Shown here piece after piece: positions 39,773 to 48,530 of a DNA stretch of 64,000 nucleotides; within the stretch, counting starts at the first letter, position 1; each line of letters opens with the position of its first letter. Both the position numbers and the translations under genes were made by a program. Source of the stretch: Methylococcus geothermalis. Its GTDB lineage: Bacteria; Pseudomonadota; Gammaproteobacteria; Methylococcales; Methylococcaceae. The notes beneath the pieces were generated by a model, which was not told the DNA's origin, did not search any database, and saw nothing but the letters and a program-made list of their open reading frames with translations. Location of the stretch: contig NZ_CP046565.1 in assembly GCF_012769535.1 (NCBI RefSeq), positions 2,804,501-2,868,500 on the forward strand. Reading direction: 5' to 3'.

Positions 39773-40168
39773 ATGATCACCGGCCCCATCAAAAACCAGA
39801 TCGACCGCATCTGGGACGCCTTCTGGTCCGGCGGCATTTCAAACCCCCTGGAGGTGATGGAACAGATCACCTACCTGCTCTTCATCCGCCGCCTGGACGA
39901 CCTGCACACCCTGGAAGAAAACAAGGCCAACCGCCTCAGGCAGCCGATGGCACGGCGCATCTTTCCCGAAGGCAGGGACGCCAAAGGCCGCCCCTTCGAG
40001 GACTATCGCTGGTCGCGCTTCAAGCACTTCGCCCCGGCCGAGATTTACGGCGAAATCATCGGGTTTGCGCGCAACAGGCGGTTTTGCTATGCGCCGTATA
40101 TAGCAGCGCTGTTCAACGAGGCGGGGCCAGGGTCGGGGTTAGATGAAGCTCGTCCGCAACACCGGTAG
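39773..40168 (+). pseudogene. hsdM: Type I restriction-modification HsdM, N-terminal fragment
   Basis: The first 85 or so residues are the HsdM N12 helical domain (IKNQIDRIWDAFWSGGISNP, VMEQITYLLFIRRLDDLHTL, RWSRFKHFAPAEIYGEIIG). The sequence then becomes unrelated and stops at 40168, inside the start of the helicase gene. No SAM-binding or NPPF motif remains. This is the 5' stump of a type I modification gene, cut where the type III-like operon begins, and it may still provide the operon promoter. Confidence 0.85.
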
Positions 40169-43100: not shown

Positions 43101-43346
43101 CGCAACCTGCCCGACGCCGCGGCCTGCGCCCGGTTCGACAAGGCCACAAAGGAGGGCGAGGACATGCGCCACGCGCAGCGCCTGCTCGCCGCCGCGGTGG
43201 CGTCGGTGGTCGGCAAGACGGAGGAACGCGCCGTCGCCAGCCTGTTCACACCGGGCGGCACACACGCGCTGGCCGGTGAGTTCGCGGGGATCAACGACTT
43301 TGAGGTCGTGGCCTTCTTGGTGATCCTGCCGGAGGTGTCCGCTTGA
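40143..43346 (+). CDS. SNF2-type helicase with PLD-like N-terminal domain
   Basis: 1067 residues. The N-terminal 170 residues resemble a degenerate phospholipase-D-type nuclease fold (QALLGSFALTTDGLGLTPGN). The superfamily-2 helicase core follows: IIADSVGLGKTFEALAIIK (Walker A near 253-262), VVIDESHNF (DESH box from Asp343), MLSATPVNNR, and the C-terminal lobe with FTAFADTARYLYEQ, IATDCISEGQNLQ and IQRFGRIDRLGS. It would translocate on DNA. Its start lies within the hsdM stump, and its stop overlaps the DUF4391 start (TTGA). Helicases of this type occur in several anti-phage systems; here it heads the type III-like operon. Confidence 0.88.
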   Translation: MKLVRNTGSDRVADLIQPAVLDGRQLDAVTPGLSIFAWAQLLRGLRRAERCRFVLPADPSMTPLLGSATDRSARNQLQSRWLAGGMRDWIVEKADIRFARGGVPQGALVIRDAGAQPVQALLGSFALTTDGLGLTPGNPLSLIQASETPEEALLLSQWFDGQWASLPNDPGAKTAVLDALNQIARHRDPHLAYALILHNLFASRSDELDEERIVKSATGIRNTVVWKKLYKFQRDGVVGAIDKLNRFGGCIIADSVGLGKTFEALAIIKYHELRNDRVLVLCPKRLRDNWTLYKANDRRNVLASDRFNYDVLNHTDLSRDRGLSGDIDLAHVNWGNYDLVVIDESHNFRNKKTPQAGGETRYDRLMRKIIREGVKTRVLMLSATPVNNRLADLRNQIAFATEGDDTALSDHGIGSIDATTRQAQKQFNRWLELDESERTPSRLIEMLGFDYFTLLDLLTIARSRRHIEKYYGTTETGRFPERLKPINIKADVDLAGAFPAIAQINLEIRRLHLASYAPLRYVLPHKQEAYDRKYSTQVKGGTGFFRQVDREESLIHLLRVNVLKRMESAVPSFALTVQRQLRDVEATLARIEAQAEDLEEIDMSIADLDLDDPAFESLVVGRKVKVLLKDVDLVRWKQDLIEDRNRLANMLAAAREITPERDAKLAELRKVIEDKCRQPINPGNRKVIVFTAFADTARYLYEQLAPWAKTTLGLDSALVTGAGSNQTTLPGLRKDLASILTAFAPRSKERPEDLAGEGELDLLIATDCISEGQNLQDCDWLINYDIHWNPVRIIQRFGRIDRLGSPNQRIQLVNFWPNMELEEYINLEQRVSGRMVLLDISATGEENLIEQQSGNPMNDLEYRRKQLLKLQDAVIDLEDLSTGVSIADLTLTDFRIDLAEYLRAHPGVLEGLPLGTMAITTTEDAEIPPGIVFCLRTEDAAATRAFEPGYPLAPHYLVHVGDDGAVLLPFTQAKHILDRLKRLCVGRNLPDAAACARFDKATKEGEDMRHAQRLLAAAVASVVGKTEERAVASLFTPGGTHALAGEFAGINDFEVVAFLVILPEVSA

Positions 43347-44167
43347 ACGCCGCCGAGGTCATCGCCGCGCTCGACCTGCCACCCGGCGCGCGGGTGGACC
43401 GCCGCGTACCCAAGGCGCTGCTGGTAGAACACGGCGCGCCGACGGCCGCAGACAAGCGGCGCATCCATGAGGGCATTGAGGCGGTGCAGTGGGTGGCGAC
43501 GCTCAAGCCCTCCACCATCGGCGTGCCGTCGTTCCGTGACGAGGTGCGCGAGTACCTGGAGATCAACGTGTTGAGCGCGACGCTGCGTGGGGGCGCCAAG
43601 GCGGCGCGTCTCGCCGAGCTGATCCATCGCGCCGTGCCGTACCCAACGCTTTTGATCACTCAAATGGCACACAGAGTCGCAGAGGACGCGGGACACCAGC
43701 CGGATAAACCTCTCCGCGTCTCCGCGCCTCCGCATGAACTTGTTTCCATTTCGGCCGCCCACACGCGCTGGTCGCAGGGGCAGGTGGGTGCCACCGTGCT
43801 CGATGGCGAACCGATAGCCGTCGCAGTCACGGAGGCAGAGACCGACGGGTTGCCGTCGTCGTTTCGCCAGGCGCTCTCGCTGGCTCGCCAGCCGCGCGCC
43901 GACCTCTACCAGCTCTATCAGGGTTGGATCGACACCCTGCTGGCGCTCAAGGCCGCCGAGGTGACCGGTCGTTTTGCGATGGTCACGTCGGCCGATCAGG
44001 CGGCCGCCCGACGCGAGGCGCTGCGCGAGTGCGCCCGGTTGGACGCTGAGATCACCCGCTTGCGCAAGGCCGCAGCGAAGGAGCGGCAGGTGCCGCGGCA
44101 GGTGGAACTGAACCTGGAACTCAAGCGCGCCGAGGCCGCCCGCGCGACGGCGAGGGAAAAGCTATGA
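43343..44167 (+). CDS. DUF4391 protein with an in-frame repeat insertion
   Basis: The TTG start at 43343 overlaps the helicase stop and has GGAGG at 43331-43335, seven bases away. 274 residues. Family features: LDLPPGARVDRRVPKALLVE, TADKRRIHEGIEAVQWVATL, LIHRAVPYPTLLI and a C-terminal coiled coil (ARREALRECARLDAEITRLR). The DUF is known from restriction-modification neighbourhoods; function unknown. Residues about 108-133 (HRVAEDAGHQPDKPLRVSAP and flanks) are encoded by the CGCGGAG-type inverted repeat at 43668-43737 and look like an insertion between PTLLI and ELVSISAAHTRWSQG. The reading frame is preserved. Confidence 0.85.
   Translation: MNAAEVIAALDLPPGARVDRRVPKALLVEHGAPTAADKRRIHEGIEAVQWVATLKPSTIGVPSFRDEVREYLEINVLSATLRGGAKAARLAELIHRAVPYPTLLITQMAHRVAEDAGHQPDKPLRVSAPPHELVSISAAHTRWSQGQVGATVLDGEPIAVAVTEAETDGLPSSFRQALSLARQPRADLYQLYQGWIDTLLALKAAEVTGRFAMVTSADQAAARREALRECARLDAEITRLRKAAAKERQVPRQVELNLELKRAEAARATAREKL
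43668..43737. repeat. CGCGGAG-type inverted repeat, copy 1 (inside DUF4391 gene)
   Basis: The right arm CTCCGCGTCTCCGCGCCTCC (43711-43730) then GCATGA is nearly identical to the terminal repeat at 44603-44628. The left arm CACACAGAGTCGCAGAGGAC is a diverged inverse copy. Together about 70 bp, inserted in frame. Confidence 0.75.
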
Positions 44168-44169
44168 AC

Positions 44170-44197
44170 TCACGCGGAGGCGCGGAGAACGCGGAGA
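44170..44197 (+). repeat. Left terminal repeat of the GxxExxY cassette
   Basis: TCACGCGGAGGCGCGGAGAA followed by CGCGGAGA. It begins three bases after the DUF4391 stop. Its GGAG at 44193-44196 lies eight bases before the GxxExxY ATG, so the repeat itself is the ribosome-binding site. Confidence 0.85.
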
Positions 44198-44204
44198 AGA
44201 CTGG

Positions 44205-44654
44205 ATGAAAGAGATAAAAGAGATAGACGACATCACGGGCGCCATCGTCGATGCCGCCTATGCGCTGCACACCGGGCTTGGGCCGGGACTGTTGGAGTCG
44301 GTGTACGAGGCAGTCCTGGCACGCGAGCTCGAACGCCGCGGATTGAGAGTCGAACGCCAGAAGATCGTCCGGTTCGAATACGACGGCATGGTCTTCGAAG
44401 AGGGCCTGCGGCTCGATCTGCTGGTGGAGGATCGCGTCATTGTGGAACTGAAATCCGTGGAGAAGCTGGCCCCAGTTCATCCCAAACAGCTTCTCACCTA
44501 CTTGCGCCTGATGCAGCTCCCCGTCGGACTCTTGATCAATTTCGGTGCGCCCACGCTCAAGGAAGGCCTGCAGCGCGTAGTCAACCACTATTCCCCGTCT
44601 CACTCCGCGTCTCCGCGCCTCCGCGTGAACCAAAATTCTGGAGGACCAAAATGA
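44205..44654 (+). CDS. GxxExxY protein (PD-(D/E)xK nuclease-like)
   Basis: 149 residues. The name-giving motif is GLLESVY at 28-34. A nuclease-like core follows: LRLDLLVEDRVIVELKSVE, with Asp71, Glu81 and Lys83 in the D...ExK arrangement, then a helix with QLLTYLRLMQ. Family function is unknown (TIGR04256-type). The last 20 residues (SHSASPRLRVN and beyond) are translated from the right terminal repeat, and the ribosome-binding site comes from the left repeat. It is inserted between DUF4391 and mod without breaking translational coupling: its stop overlaps the mod start (ATGA). Confidence 0.85.
   Translation: MKEIKEIDDITGAIVDAAYALHTGLGPGLLESVYEAVLARELERRGLRVERQKIVRFEYDGMVFEEGLRLDLLVEDRVIVELKSVEKLAPVHPKQLLTYLRLMQLPVGLLINFGAPTLKEGLQRVVNHYSPSHSASPRLRVNQNSGGPK
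44603..44628 (-). repeat. Right terminal repeat of the GxxExxY cassette
   Basis: CTCCGCGTCTCCGCGCCTCC followed by GCGTGA, the inverse of 44170-44197. It is translated as the C-terminus of the GxxExxY protein and ends 22 bases before the mod start codon. Confidence 0.85.
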
Positions 44655-46717
44655 AGAAGCTGACCGCCAACGACCCCGAGACCAAGAGCCCCGACCTCGT
44701 CGCCGAAAACATCGCCCGGCTCAAGGCGCTGTTCCCTGAACTTGTGACCGAGGGGCCGGACGGCGCCGCCGTGAACGTGGACGTGCTCAAGGCGCTGGTG
44801 GGCGACAAGACCGTCACCGACGCCGACGAGAAGTACGGCCTCAACTGGCACGGCAAGCGCCGCGCCCGGCAGCTCGCGCTCACGCCCTCCACCGGCACGC
44901 TGCGCCCCTGCCCGGAGGACAGCGTGGACTGGGACACCACGCAGAACCTCATGATCGAGGGCGACAACCTGGAGGTGCTCAAGCTCCTGCAGAAGAGCTA
45001 CGCCGGGAAAGTGAAGCTCATCTACATCGATCCGCCGTACAACACGGGCAAGGACTTCGTCTATCCCGACGACTTCAAGGACAACATCAAAAACTACCTG
45101 GAGCTGACCGGGCAGGTCGAAGGCGGGCGGAAGATCAGCAGCAACACCGAGGCCAGCGGGCGGTTTCACGCGGACTGGCTGAACATGATGTATCCGCGGC
45201 TGAAGTTGGCCAGGGGGCTTCTGCGAAGTGACGGCGTGATGTTCGTGTCAATCGATGAGAAGGAGGTCTCTCGGCTTAGAGCAATCTTGGATGAGGTTTT
45301 CGGTGAAGAGAACTTTGTCTCGAATCTGGTTTGGCAATCGCGAACCTCCATTTCGGACGATCAGGAAGTATCGTTGAACCACAACCACACGTTGATTTAT
45401 GCGAAACGGCGTGAGGCTTTGGAGTACCATGGTGAACCATTAAACGAGTCGGAGTATGAGAACCCGGACAACGACGTAAGAGGTCCCTGGAAGCTGGTTC
45501 CCCTTGATGCGAACAAGCCGGGCGGTAATACCATGTACCCAATTAGAAACCCCAAGACCGGGGTGGACTACTGGCCCCCAACAGGGCGTAGCTGGGCAAT
45601 TAACCCAGACGAATACCAACGGCTGTTGGACGACGGGCGCATTAAATTCGGCAAGACCGACGATTCTGCGCCCAAGAAGAAGCTGTATCTGAAGGAGCGA
45701 TTGGCAGCTGGAGAAACCAGAACCCCCAGCTCAATGCTGACCGACGCTGGGACGACTAAGGACGGGACAGAAGAGTGTGCGAGTCTCATGGGCAAAAAAA
45801 GGGTATTCGATTACCCAAAGCCGACTTCCCTGATTAGCAGGCTCATTCAGTACGGATCTTCCGCACATTCAGAATCCATAGTTATGGACTTCTTCGCAGG
45901 ATCAGGTACTACAGGTCACGCAACGTGGTTGCGGAGCGCACTCGACGGACGCCCCCGACGATTCATCCTCGTCCAGCTTCCCGAACCGCTCGACCCGGAG
46001 AACAAGGACCAGAAGGTCGCCGCTGAGTTTTGCGACAAGCTCGGCAAGCCCCGCACCATCGCCGAGCTGACCAAAGAACGCCTCCGCCGGGCCGCGAAGA
46101 AGATCCGGGAAGAGATCGCACGCGGAGCCGCGGAGAACGCGGAGAAGAGCGAAGGCGGGTTGTTTTCTGACCCTCTCCGCGCCTCCGCGCCTCCGCGTGA
46201 GCCCGACCTCGGCTTCCGCGTCTTCAAGCTCGACTCCAGCAACATCCGCGCTTGGGAGCCGGACCGCGCCGACCTGGACCAGACGCTGCTCGACCACGTG
46301 GAGCACATCAAGGACGGCCGCACCGAGCAGGACATCCTCTACGAGCTGCTGCTCAAGCTCGGCCTCGATCTGTGCGTGCCGATCGAAACGAAAAGCATCG
46401 CACGCGGAGCCGCGGAGAACACGGAGGAAAGGGACAAGTCCGCGATGACTTCACTCCGCGCCTCCCCGCCTCCGCGTGACCCCTTCACCGTCTACAGCAT
46501 CGGCGGCGGCGTGCTGCTGGCCTGCCTCGCCACGCGGATCACTCGCGAGGACGTCGAGCCGCTGGCCCAAGGCATCGTCGCCTGGCACCAGGAACTCGCC
46601 CCGGCCGGTGACACCACCTGCGTCTTCCGCGACAGCGCCTTTGCCGACGACGTGGCCAAGACCAACCTCGCAGCCATCCTCGAGCAACACGGCATCGCCA
46701 ACGTGAGAAGTTTGTGA
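44651..46717 (+). CDS. mod: Type III-like DNA methyltransferase (Mod) with two in-frame repeat insertions
   Basis: 688 residues; ATG 44651 with GGAGG at 44640-44644. Beta-class order of motifs: [13 protein letters not shown] (motif IV, DPPY 127-130) precedes [11 protein letters not shown] (motif I, 415-422). The target-recognition region between them (about 200-405; 45240-45880) is markedly AT-richer than the flanks, suggesting exchange of the specificity domain. Two alien peptides interrupt conserved regions: [20 protein letters not shown] and following (encoded by 46118-46200) before [13 protein letters not shown], and [20 protein letters not shown] and following (46400-46479) before [15 protein letters not shown]. 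Both insertions preserve the frame. The enzyme would methylate adenine in the host DNA. Its partner Res is at 48527. Confidence 0.9.
46118..46200. repeat. CGCGGAG-type inverted repeat, copy 2 (inside mod)
   Basis: Left arm GCACGCGGAGCCGCGGAGAA then CGCGGAG; right arm CTCCGCGCCTCCGCGCCTCC then GCGTGA, around a short centre. 83 bp, in frame with the methyltransferase. Confidence 0.85.
46400..46479. repeat. CGCGGAG-type inverted repeat, copy 3 (inside mod)
   Basis: Left arm GCACGCGGAGCCGCGGAGAA; right arm CTCCGCGCCTCCCCGCCTCC then GCGTGA. 80 bp, in frame. The left arm is identical to that of copy 2 over 20 bases, so the two copies are recent relatives. Confidence 0.85.
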
Positions 46718-47922
46718 TGAGTCAATTCTTTGAACCCCCGCGTGTAGAGGCTCTGCATGTGCGGAATTACCGCGCCCTGCGAGACGTGCGCTTGGATTCC
46801 ATCACGCCGCTGACCGTCTTGCTCGGCCCCAACGGTAGCGGCAAGTCCACGGTCTTCGACGTGTTCGCCTTTCTGTCCGAGTGTTTCGGTGAAGGGCTGC
46901 GCAAGGCGTGGGACCGGCGGGGACGCTTCCGTGAGCTCCGAAGTCGTGATTCGGACGGCCCCATCGTCATCGAGCTGCAATACCGGGAAAAGCCGGGCAC
47001 GCCGCTGATCACCTATCACCTGGAAATCGACGAAAAAGATCGGGGACCGGTGGTCAAACGTGAGTCTTTACGCTGGAAGCGGACCCACCCGGGGGCCCCT
47101 TTTTACTTTCTCGATTATTGCGAAGGCAAAGGCCAGGTCATTACCGGGGAACAGCCGGAATCGCAGGACAACCGTATTGAAAAGCCTCTTTCCGGACCGG
47201 ATGTGCTGGCGGTGAACACTCTGGGGCAGCTCGCGGAGAACCCGCGAGTAATCGCCCTGCGCGCCTTTATCACCGGCTGGCATCTTTCGTACCTTTCCGC
47301 CGACGCGGCACGGGGCAACCCGGAGGCAGGGGCGGAAGAACGGTTGTCCCAGACGGGCGACAACCTCGCCAACGTCATTCAATACCTGGGCGAGGAACAT
47401 CCGGAACGCTTGGACAAGATTTTCCAGACCTTGAAACGCCGTGTCCCCCGCGTCGAGGAGGTGACCTCACGCCCGCTGGACGACGGCCGCCTGCTGCTGC
47501 AGGTCAAGGATGCACCCTTTTCTTCCCCGGTGCTGGCGCGCTTCGCCTCGGACGGAACACTGAAGATGCTGGCCTACCTGATCCTGCTCTACGATCCGGA
47601 ACCACCGCAGCTCATCGGCATCGAAGAGCCGGAAAACTATCTCCACCCCCGGCTTCTGCCGGAACTGGCGGAAGAGTGCGACATGGCTTCGGCGCGCACC
47701 CAGCTCATCGTGACCACCCACTCCCCCTTCTTTATTGATCGGCTGCGTCCTGAACAGGTGCGTGTTCTCTATCGAGGCGCCGATGGTTACACCCGGGCGA
47801 AGCGGGTCGCGGATATGCCCGGCATCAGGGAATTTCTTGAGGCGGGGGCATCCCTGGGGGATCTGTGGATGGAGGGGCATTTCGAAGTGGGCGACCCCCT
47901 GGCTGGGGAGGAAGGGGCATGA
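46717..47922 (+). CDS. AAA/SMC-like ATPase (AAA_21 type)
   Basis: 401 residues; ATG 46717 shares its A with the mod stop (TGATG). Walker [19 protein letters not shown] is near residues 36-53. The signature-like segment [16 protein letters not shown] is followed by Walker [21 protein letters not shown] and the His-loop [12 protein letters not shown]. This is the ABC-type architecture of OLD/RecF-like ATPases that sense DNA ends or phage factors and drive a partner nuclease. The next gene, DUF4276, overlaps by 4 bp. The pair looks like a self-contained two-gene module lodged between mod and res. Confidence 0.88.
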
Positions 47923-48530
47923 GCCGACTGGAAGTGCTCGTGGAGGAGCCATCCATGGAAGAGGCCTTGCGGCACCTGCTGCCGAAGATCATCGGGAATC
48001 GCACCGGGTGGAAGGTGATCAACATGCGGAGCAAGGGGCGGCTCATGAAAGAGCTCCCTGACCGGCTCCGCGGCTACAAAAGGCGGATGGATGGAGGCGA
48101 GGAGATCAAGGTCATTGTCTTGATCGATCGGGACAATGACAACTGTCATGACCTGAAACGGCAACTTGAAGACATGGCTCGCAACGCCGGATTGCAGACA
48201 AAAACGGCTGCAGGAACGGGTGGTGCTGCTTTCCAGGTGGTCAATCGCATCGCCATCGAGGAATTGGAGGCGTGGTTTATAGGCGATACCACGGCATTGC
48301 AATGCGCTTTTACATCGTTACGTGGTATTCGCTTTCCGAACTCATTCAACAATCCCGACAATGGCGGCACCTGGGAGCGGCTTCACCATTTCCTCAAACA
48401 AAACGGTATCTACCGTAACAGTTTTCCCAAGATCGCCGCGGCCCGCAATATTGCCAAACACATGGACCCTCGCCGCAATCGCTCACGCAGTTTTCAGTGC
48501 TTTCTGCAAGGCGTGGTGGCCTGCCTATGA
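47919..48530 (+). CDS. DUF4276 protein (possible Toprim-like nuclease partner)
   Basis: 203 residues from ATG 47919 (overlaps the ATPase stop). DUF4276 proteins typically follow AAA_21 ATPases. Visible features are [20 protein letters not shown] at the start (acidic Glu motif as in Toprim domains), [20 protein letters not shown] (DxD-like acidic pair) and [18 protein letters not shown] (a further acidic cluster). These acidic positions fit a metal-dependent Toprim fold as in OLD and PARIS AriB, but that is inference. It ends overlapping the res start. Confidence 0.8.

Follow-up and report, generated by a model that had tools for sequence, protein, structure and literature searches.

A GxxExxY nuclease gene between cognate terminal inverted repeats: a putative mobile mini-element with proposed homing-like spread

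In the RAYT/REP system (Nunvar 2010, PMC2817692), a tyrosine transposase gene lies between inverted palindromes, gene and repeats co-vary, and many REP palindromes without a gene are regarded as non-autonomous elements. An intervening sequence (IVS) of 23S rRNA has 428 nt, 28-bp terminal repeats and one small ORF (PMC4990558). The element analysed here lies in a window of 64,000 nucleotides of the Methylococcus geothermalis genome. As an earlier note on this DNA had proposed, it follows the logic of RAYT/REP (REPIN) elements: a nuclease gene, GxxExxY, is flanked by palindromic repeats in inverted orientation, gene and arms vary together, and gene-less palindromes are present. Unlike in RAYT/REP, the gene encodes a predicted RecB/Cas4-type PD-(D/E)XK nuclease and a tyrosine (HUH) transposase gene is absent, the arms are built of tandem 8-10 bp units and are found in many phyla, and multi-copy genomes have own arms for each GxxExxY copy. 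With the IVS the element shares its size (~430-470 nt), terminal inverted repeats of ~27 nt, one small ORF and a sporadic occurrence suggestive of horizontal transfer.

Free-standing homing endonuclease genes include PD-(D/E)XK types, e.g. I-SspI and I-Bth0305I. The GxxExxY element is like them in having a single nuclease gene, in that the same site is occupied or empty in relatives (trpD-trpC), in its transfer without flanks and in its little intragenomic multiplication. To our knowledge, homing endonuclease genes have neither terminal inverted repeats of tandem units nor hairpin derivatives that lack the gene. MITEs and Rickettsia palindromic elements are short palindromic copies, some of them in frame within protein genes. 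Short palindromic copies related to GxxExxY elements are likewise found, in part in frame within protein genes, but in this case they are accompanied by a form that has the same arms and carries the gene. Terminal inverted repeats are also a feature of DNA transposons and MITEs. Unlike DNA transposons, the GxxExxY element has neither a transposase of a known class nor near-identical copies in one genome (128 pairs compared).

No function has been assigned to the numerous GxxExxY/PDDEXK_3 proteins, which are hardly present in the literature searched, a body of text that leaves out most subscription journals and all bioRxiv preprints. Within it, the few papers naming GxxExxY or its family accessions are, by title and abstract opening, not about mobility. 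The same search yielded no paper on PDDEXK_3 together with inverted repeats, no occurrence of six arm sequences and no description of a palindrome-bounded GxxExxY element, and it suggests that a mobile element type with this gene is undescribed. In this study, we report on arms, gene, sites and relatives of the element. We consider it probable that the GxxExxY nuclease gene and its cognate terminal inverted repeats form a self-contained mobile mini-element, which would spread in a homing-like manner.

In the window, inverted arms of 27 and 26 nt with exact complementarity over 19 nt enclose exactly one gene (Table 1). The left-arm sequence at 44170-44196 is TCACGCGGAGGCGCGGAGAACGCGGAG, and the right arm at 44603-44628 is the complement of TCACGCGGAGGCGCGGAGACGCGGAG. 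The left arm carries GGAG at 44193-44196, 8 nt 5' of the GxxExxY ATG, and the C-terminal residues SASPRLRV are encoded by the right arm. The earlier note had described this arrangement, including the Shine-Dalgarno sequence from the left and the C-terminus from the right repeat, together with three gene-less copies nearby, and our analysis bears it out, one of the copies having a degenerate left side. The repeats do bound the gene as it had claimed, although the limits it gave, 44170-44628, are widened by DNA homology to ~44168-44633. In a profile search the gene matches TIGR04256 with 138 bits (cut-off 35) and PF13366 with 137 bits. It is the only GxxExxY gene of this genome. The core 16-mer of the repeat occurs five times in the 3.37 Mb genome (control pattern 0) and the 26-nt left arm, at most 3 mismatches being allowed, three times (control 0), all at the window locus; at these stringencies the repeat is not dispersed in this genome but restricted to one 3-kb stretch.

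Table 1. Features of the GxxExxY locus in window coordinates; fold z-scores were computed as single-stranded DNA
Feature	Coordinates	Strand	Basis or remark
Putative mobile cassette (arm, GxxExxY gene, arm)	44168..44633	+	DNA-homology limits against Chthoniobacterales L066 and L067
Left arm, three tandem CGCGGAG units, source of Shine-Dalgarno GGAG	44170..44196	+	Repeat comparison
Right arm, reverse complement of left, one A fewer than the left arm's GAGAACGCGG	44603..44628	-	Same asymmetry in L066 and L067
GxxExxY/PDDEXK_3 gene, 149 aa	44205..44654	+	D71, E81xK83, Q95xxxY99; predicted RecB-type PD-(D/E)XK nuclease fold
Gene-less copy, degenerate left side, in frame within DUF4391 gene	43668..43737	.	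Fold z -1.48 (weak)
Solo hairpin, in frame within type III methyltransferase gene	46119..46200	.	DNA fold z -6.96
Second solo hairpin, in frame within type III methyltransferase gene	46401..46479	.	DNA fold z -2.43
Upstream host gene DUF4391, stop adjoining left end of element	43343..44167	+	Holds the gene-less copy with degenerate left side
Downstream host gene, type III DNA methyltransferase, start overlapping GxxExxY stop	44651..46717	+	Holds both solo hairpins

The second hairpin of the methyltransferase gene is missing from 24 of 26 aligned homologues, these being all that cover the site, and the first falls in a loop which is itself variable among the homologues. The insert in the DUF4391 gene is not present in any of six aligned homologues. 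The neighbourhood comprises DUF4391, the type III methyltransferase, an AAA ATPase, DUF4276 and a type III restriction subunit. The AAA ATPase and DUF4276 pair (46714-48530), within this type III restriction-modification locus, matches PADLOC HEC-01A/HEC-01B. A 131-aa ORF at 39773-40168, which matches the N-terminal domain of HsdM only, is probably a type I methyltransferase remnant at the edge of the defence locus. Empty sites, anticipated in the earlier note, are present both at the junction occupied in the window and at trpD-trpC (see below). The DUF4391-methyltransferase junction is without a GxxExxY insertion in at least four loci (L161, L164, L166 and L168), with 24-67 nt between the aligned segments versus 486 nt in the window. 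At six other loci (L158-L160, L163, L172 and L180) it is occupied by unrelated stretches of 346-1042 nt, which seem to consist of further small genes and may mark the junction as an insertion hot spot.

To see how generally GxxExxY genes have arms, each gene was scored for its best inverted repeat, sought up to 200 nt away (threshold >=13), and compared with same-sized windows slid along the same DNA. Arms were present at 25 of 30 genes in a first sample (controls 0.8% of 855 windows), consisting of one gene each from 30 of 33 matching genomes among 200 of the window's phylum, with the window's genome included; these loci are not independent, because 13 of the 30 sit at the trpD-trpC junction. 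A second sample, made up of the best 80 loci among the matches listed from named genomes plus one viral contig, gave arms at 68 of 81 loci (controls 1.07% of 9566 windows). It covers Verrucomicrobiota, Chloroflexota, Cyanobacteriota, Bacteroidota, Acidobacteriota, Planctomycetota, Pseudomonadota, one Methanothrix, in which an arm pair was looked for and not found, and others. In a third sample, 60 of 103 matches in 25 genomes, drawn from 13 multi-copy genomes, arms were found at 38 of 60 genes (controls 2 of 647 windows); 12 of the 60 loci are shared with the second sample, 9 of them positive. Hence 5, 13 and 22 genes, respectively, had no arm pair above threshold. The expectation that GxxExxY genes are flanked by repeats far above control windows, where the rate is about 1% or less, was therefore borne out. 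A single repeat family for these flanks was not: GxxExxY lineages differ in their arms, which are variants of a common grammar.

Among 119 distinct arm pairs this grammar takes the form of C(G/A)C-N-(A/G)-A-(G/T) units, spaced by 8, 9 and 10 bp in 151, 76 and 52 cases, in a search that itself fixed letters 1, 3 and 6 and limited letters 2, 5 and 7. The arms have a grammar in common, not a sequence, each with two or three tandem units of ~8-10 bp. In most cases they correspond to the halves of a single palindrome; at one locus (L105) a whole hairpin, not half a palindrome, stands on either side of the GxxExxY gene. Chance or base composition as the source of arms is ruled out by the in-locus control windows and by reversed control patterns, which gave zero or nearly zero. 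GxxExxY genes are scattered across phyla and multi-copy. One short peptide pattern found a single relative in 2.9 million viral contigs, and on this count carriage by phages was rejected.

Evidence of mobility comes from two comparisons. The window protein is 78 and 77% identical to those of two Chthoniobacterales loci, L066 and L067, and DNA similarity is confined to the unit from arm to arm, including the one-base asymmetry of left and right arm. The flanking genes of the window are unrelated to those of L066 and L067, which have a common downstream gene that reads like the hsdR of a type I system. The second and clearest comparison concerns the trpD-trpC junction in f27, a group of 74 genomes that is perhaps Mariprofundaceae; the protein of a zetaproteobacterial locus (L122) is identical to that of L294 in f27. 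Of the 74 genomes, 63 have trpC, and in 26 of these the junction was empty, the two genes overlapping or lying at most 32 nt apart. It held a GxxExxY cassette in 23, a solo hairpin in 7 and another insert in 1, and trpD was not found upstream of trpC in 6. The arm score of 13 was reached by 16 of the 23 cassettes and by 3 of the 7 solo hairpins, the remaining solos being called by eye.

On the trpC tree the full state requires 13 changes, at least 9 of them forced by well-supported branches. Among 210 pairs, formed by 21 of the 23 cassettes with the partial copies L310 and L354 left out, the identities of trpD and trpC go together (Spearman 0.81), whereas those of GxxExxY and the flanking genes do not (0.007). 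Since GxxExxY identities do not track those of trpD and trpC, different cassettes have reached the same junction without their flanks. In L313 and L337 the GxxExxY proteins are 96% and the TrpC proteins 72% identical, and this pair is closer in its cassette than in either flanking gene. Conversely, L296 and L297 share 95% of TrpC and 61% of GxxExxY, with cassettes in different clades. Vertical inheritance as the sole cause was rejected because the GxxExxY tree conflicts with the trpC tree and because of the L313/L337 pair. Fast divergence of the GxxExxY gene may add to the discordance. As candidate traces of a target-site duplication, inspection by eye gave AC outside both arms in six elements compared and ATGA at both ends of some trpD-trpC insertions, a motif that the stop/start overlap requires anyway.

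These data also bear on the view that GxxExxY is a resident host gene, a defence accessory or regulator without mobility of its own, and that the hairpins are ordinary terminators or regulatory repeats. The place of the window copy in a restriction-modification locus and the position of the L066 and L067 copies ahead of the hsdR-like gene agree with such a role. Cassette exchange and empty sites at trpD-trpC, the end of DNA homology at the arms and the scattered, multi-copy presence across phyla make it extremely unlikely. A horizontally mobile, palindrome-bounded cassette, with arms and gene as a unit common to several phyla and with gene-less derivatives, is what the compared genomes indicate.

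Steps from the cassette to such derivatives are visible at individual loci. In L092 (Sphingorhabdus) a tandem array lies behind a full element, and its copies retain both arms and both gene ends but not the middle. Partial copies extending into the gene were found at 7 of 88 loci (L084, L090, L092, L098, L129, L131 and L134) and, by eye, also at L069 and L070. Solo hairpins of near-constant length, similar to MITEs, occur in genome G155. As these forms show, internally deleted, gene-less derivatives arise from the cassette. Two further arrangements were seen: in G131 (L194) a three-unit hairpin looks as though it had been inserted into the loop of a second hairpin with the same grammar, and in L070 the GxxExxY gene is, by eye, broken by an insert of ~220 nt with terminal inverted repeats of its own, GCTAGCCCGCATTTCTCACC.

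Solo hairpins also point to a different reading, in which another factor, a host or unrelated mobile enzyme, moves a MITE-like family of palindromes, and GxxExxY is a passenger in the loop with a different use for its nuclease, such as defence or addiction. Hairpins are plentiful without the gene, as in G156 with 118 repeats and no TIGR04256 match. Moreover, genes for S23 four-helix-bundle proteins (TIGR02436, L036-L065) lie between inverted repeats of tandem units as well: a score of at least 13 was reached at 17 of 28 loci from the window's phylum, two short loci of 30 having been left out (controls 1.5% of 812 windows). The architecture is thus not bound to one protein. S23 arms, however, follow another grammar, often with tandem units of ~7 bp (AGTGAGT, GGCAGTA, GGCAATA). 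S23 cassettes form a parallel family and are perhaps the free-standing counterpart of the 23S rRNA intervening sequences.

The relation between arm type and protein lineage also speaks against a passenger. Similar proteins have similar arms in a Mantel test (rho -0.278) on the 88 of 105 loci with an arm score of at least 13, six of 111 loci having been removed beforehand for stops or an ambiguous frame. The correlation persists in pairs between phyla only (rho -0.191; phylum labels assigned by hand), and in both tests 0 of 999 permutations were as strong; mere co-inheritance would equally result in this correlation. By eye, all six members of the GE-Y subfamily (B-type, with a one-residue deletion) have units of ~10 bp, five of AT type and one of GAC type, and the remaining 82 proteins have mainly AG-type units of 8-9 bp. 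In f27, repeat type follows protein type. The AT-type repeat occurs in 8 of 74 genomes, and a B-type GxxExxY gene is present in 7 of these 8 versus 8 of the 66 others (P = 2.6e-5). When AT-type copies near the gene are left aside, such a gene is present in 5 of 6 genomes (P = 0.001); B-type classing by profile-match length and the sorting of near and away copies were done by hand. The AG-type pattern was found in 33 of 74 genomes, with any GxxExxY gene in 26 of the 33 versus 19 of the other 41 (P = 0.008) and with no such gene detected in 7 of the 33. For the two arm patterns against any GxxExxY gene the P values are 0.008 and 0.02, in part because the gene's own arms are counted. An 8-bp pattern goes with gene presence over 200 genomes (P = 2e-10) and outside f27 (P = 0.0005), and within f27 no significant association was found (P = 0.25).

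Paralogues within one genome are distant, with a median identity of 39% and a maximum of 70% over 128 pairs. As no pair reaches 80%, nothing points to the full element having multiplied recently within genomes. Where such paralogues have arms, the arm pairs differ from each other, a comparison of arms within versus between loci being biased because arms were picked by their left-right match. With arms that differ between paralogues of one genome and go with the protein lineage, we regard the passenger role as rather unlikely and prefer the reading in which the nuclease belongs to its arms.

The protein is predicted to be a small RecB/Cas4-type PD-(D/E)XK nuclease. The predicted active site is intact, with D71, E81, K83 and Q95 in all 49 sequences of one alignment and Y99 in at least 90%; in a more diverse alignment of 22 sequences E81 is not fully but nearly invariant. 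The structure, predicted with confidence (pLDDT 93.4, pTM 0.87), has its best Foldseek matches in Cas4, MGME1, alkaline and lambda exonucleases and other RecB-type nucleases, none at E <= 0.001, and a PDB sequence search with the protein gave no match. The profile search returned TIGR04256 and PF13366 only, plus a sub-threshold DUF2111, and no integrase, recombinase or transposase domain.

A DNA-nuclease fold, not that of S23, bears on a further proposal, namely that the element acts at the RNA level like 23S rRNA intervening sequences: the arms would pair in the transcript and shield the host mRNA, and the DNA would be spread by unspecified recombination. Size and plan do resemble the IVS (PMC4990558), and as DNA two of the three solo copies have better folds than shuffled sequences. 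The window copy, however, lies between protein genes, not in a 23S rRNA helix of the kind from which RNase III excises an IVS, with GxxExxY in place of the S23p ORF, and no Rfam match was found in 43300-46800. Selection on RNA pairing of the arms was rejected, given that left/right arm differences have no G-U bias (72 of G-U type, 92 of A-C type, P = 0.14). An RNA-level element is, in our judgement, very unlikely.

For the mobile cassette we propose, on the grounds of the RecB-type nuclease fold and the lack of an integrase or transposase domain, a homing-like sequence of arm recognition, break and copying by host repair. We infer that the nuclease drives movement, probably by such cut and repair. 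It would bind the iterated arm units, or the hairpin formed by them, and cut DNA at or near the target or at the arms. Host recombinational repair would then fill the break with a copy of the cassette, as happens in homing; since the element has no known recombinase or transposase domain, the joining step must be supplied by the host. Gene-less hairpins would be non-autonomous derivatives served in trans. Insertions would persist where harm is small, at operon stop/start junctions or in frame.

As the sole gene of a palindrome-bounded mobile element, GxxExxY would have a testable role. One class of short palindromic repeats may have its origin in this element, which, as a nuclease-only element with a Cas4/lambda-exonuclease-like enzyme, would join the few repeat-making systems of which RAYT/REP is one. 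Matched pairs of protein and arms are natural reagents for studying the possible recognition of iterated DNA by a 130-residue nuclease. More tentatively, and with somewhat less than even confidence, we suggest that GxxExxY nucleases may represent a widespread, undescribed class of mobile elements homing through cognate iterated palindromic arms, that bacterial genomes may owe a large share of their short palindromic repeats to the gene-less hairpins left by these elements, and that the S23 parallel would explain the 23S rRNA intervening sequences.
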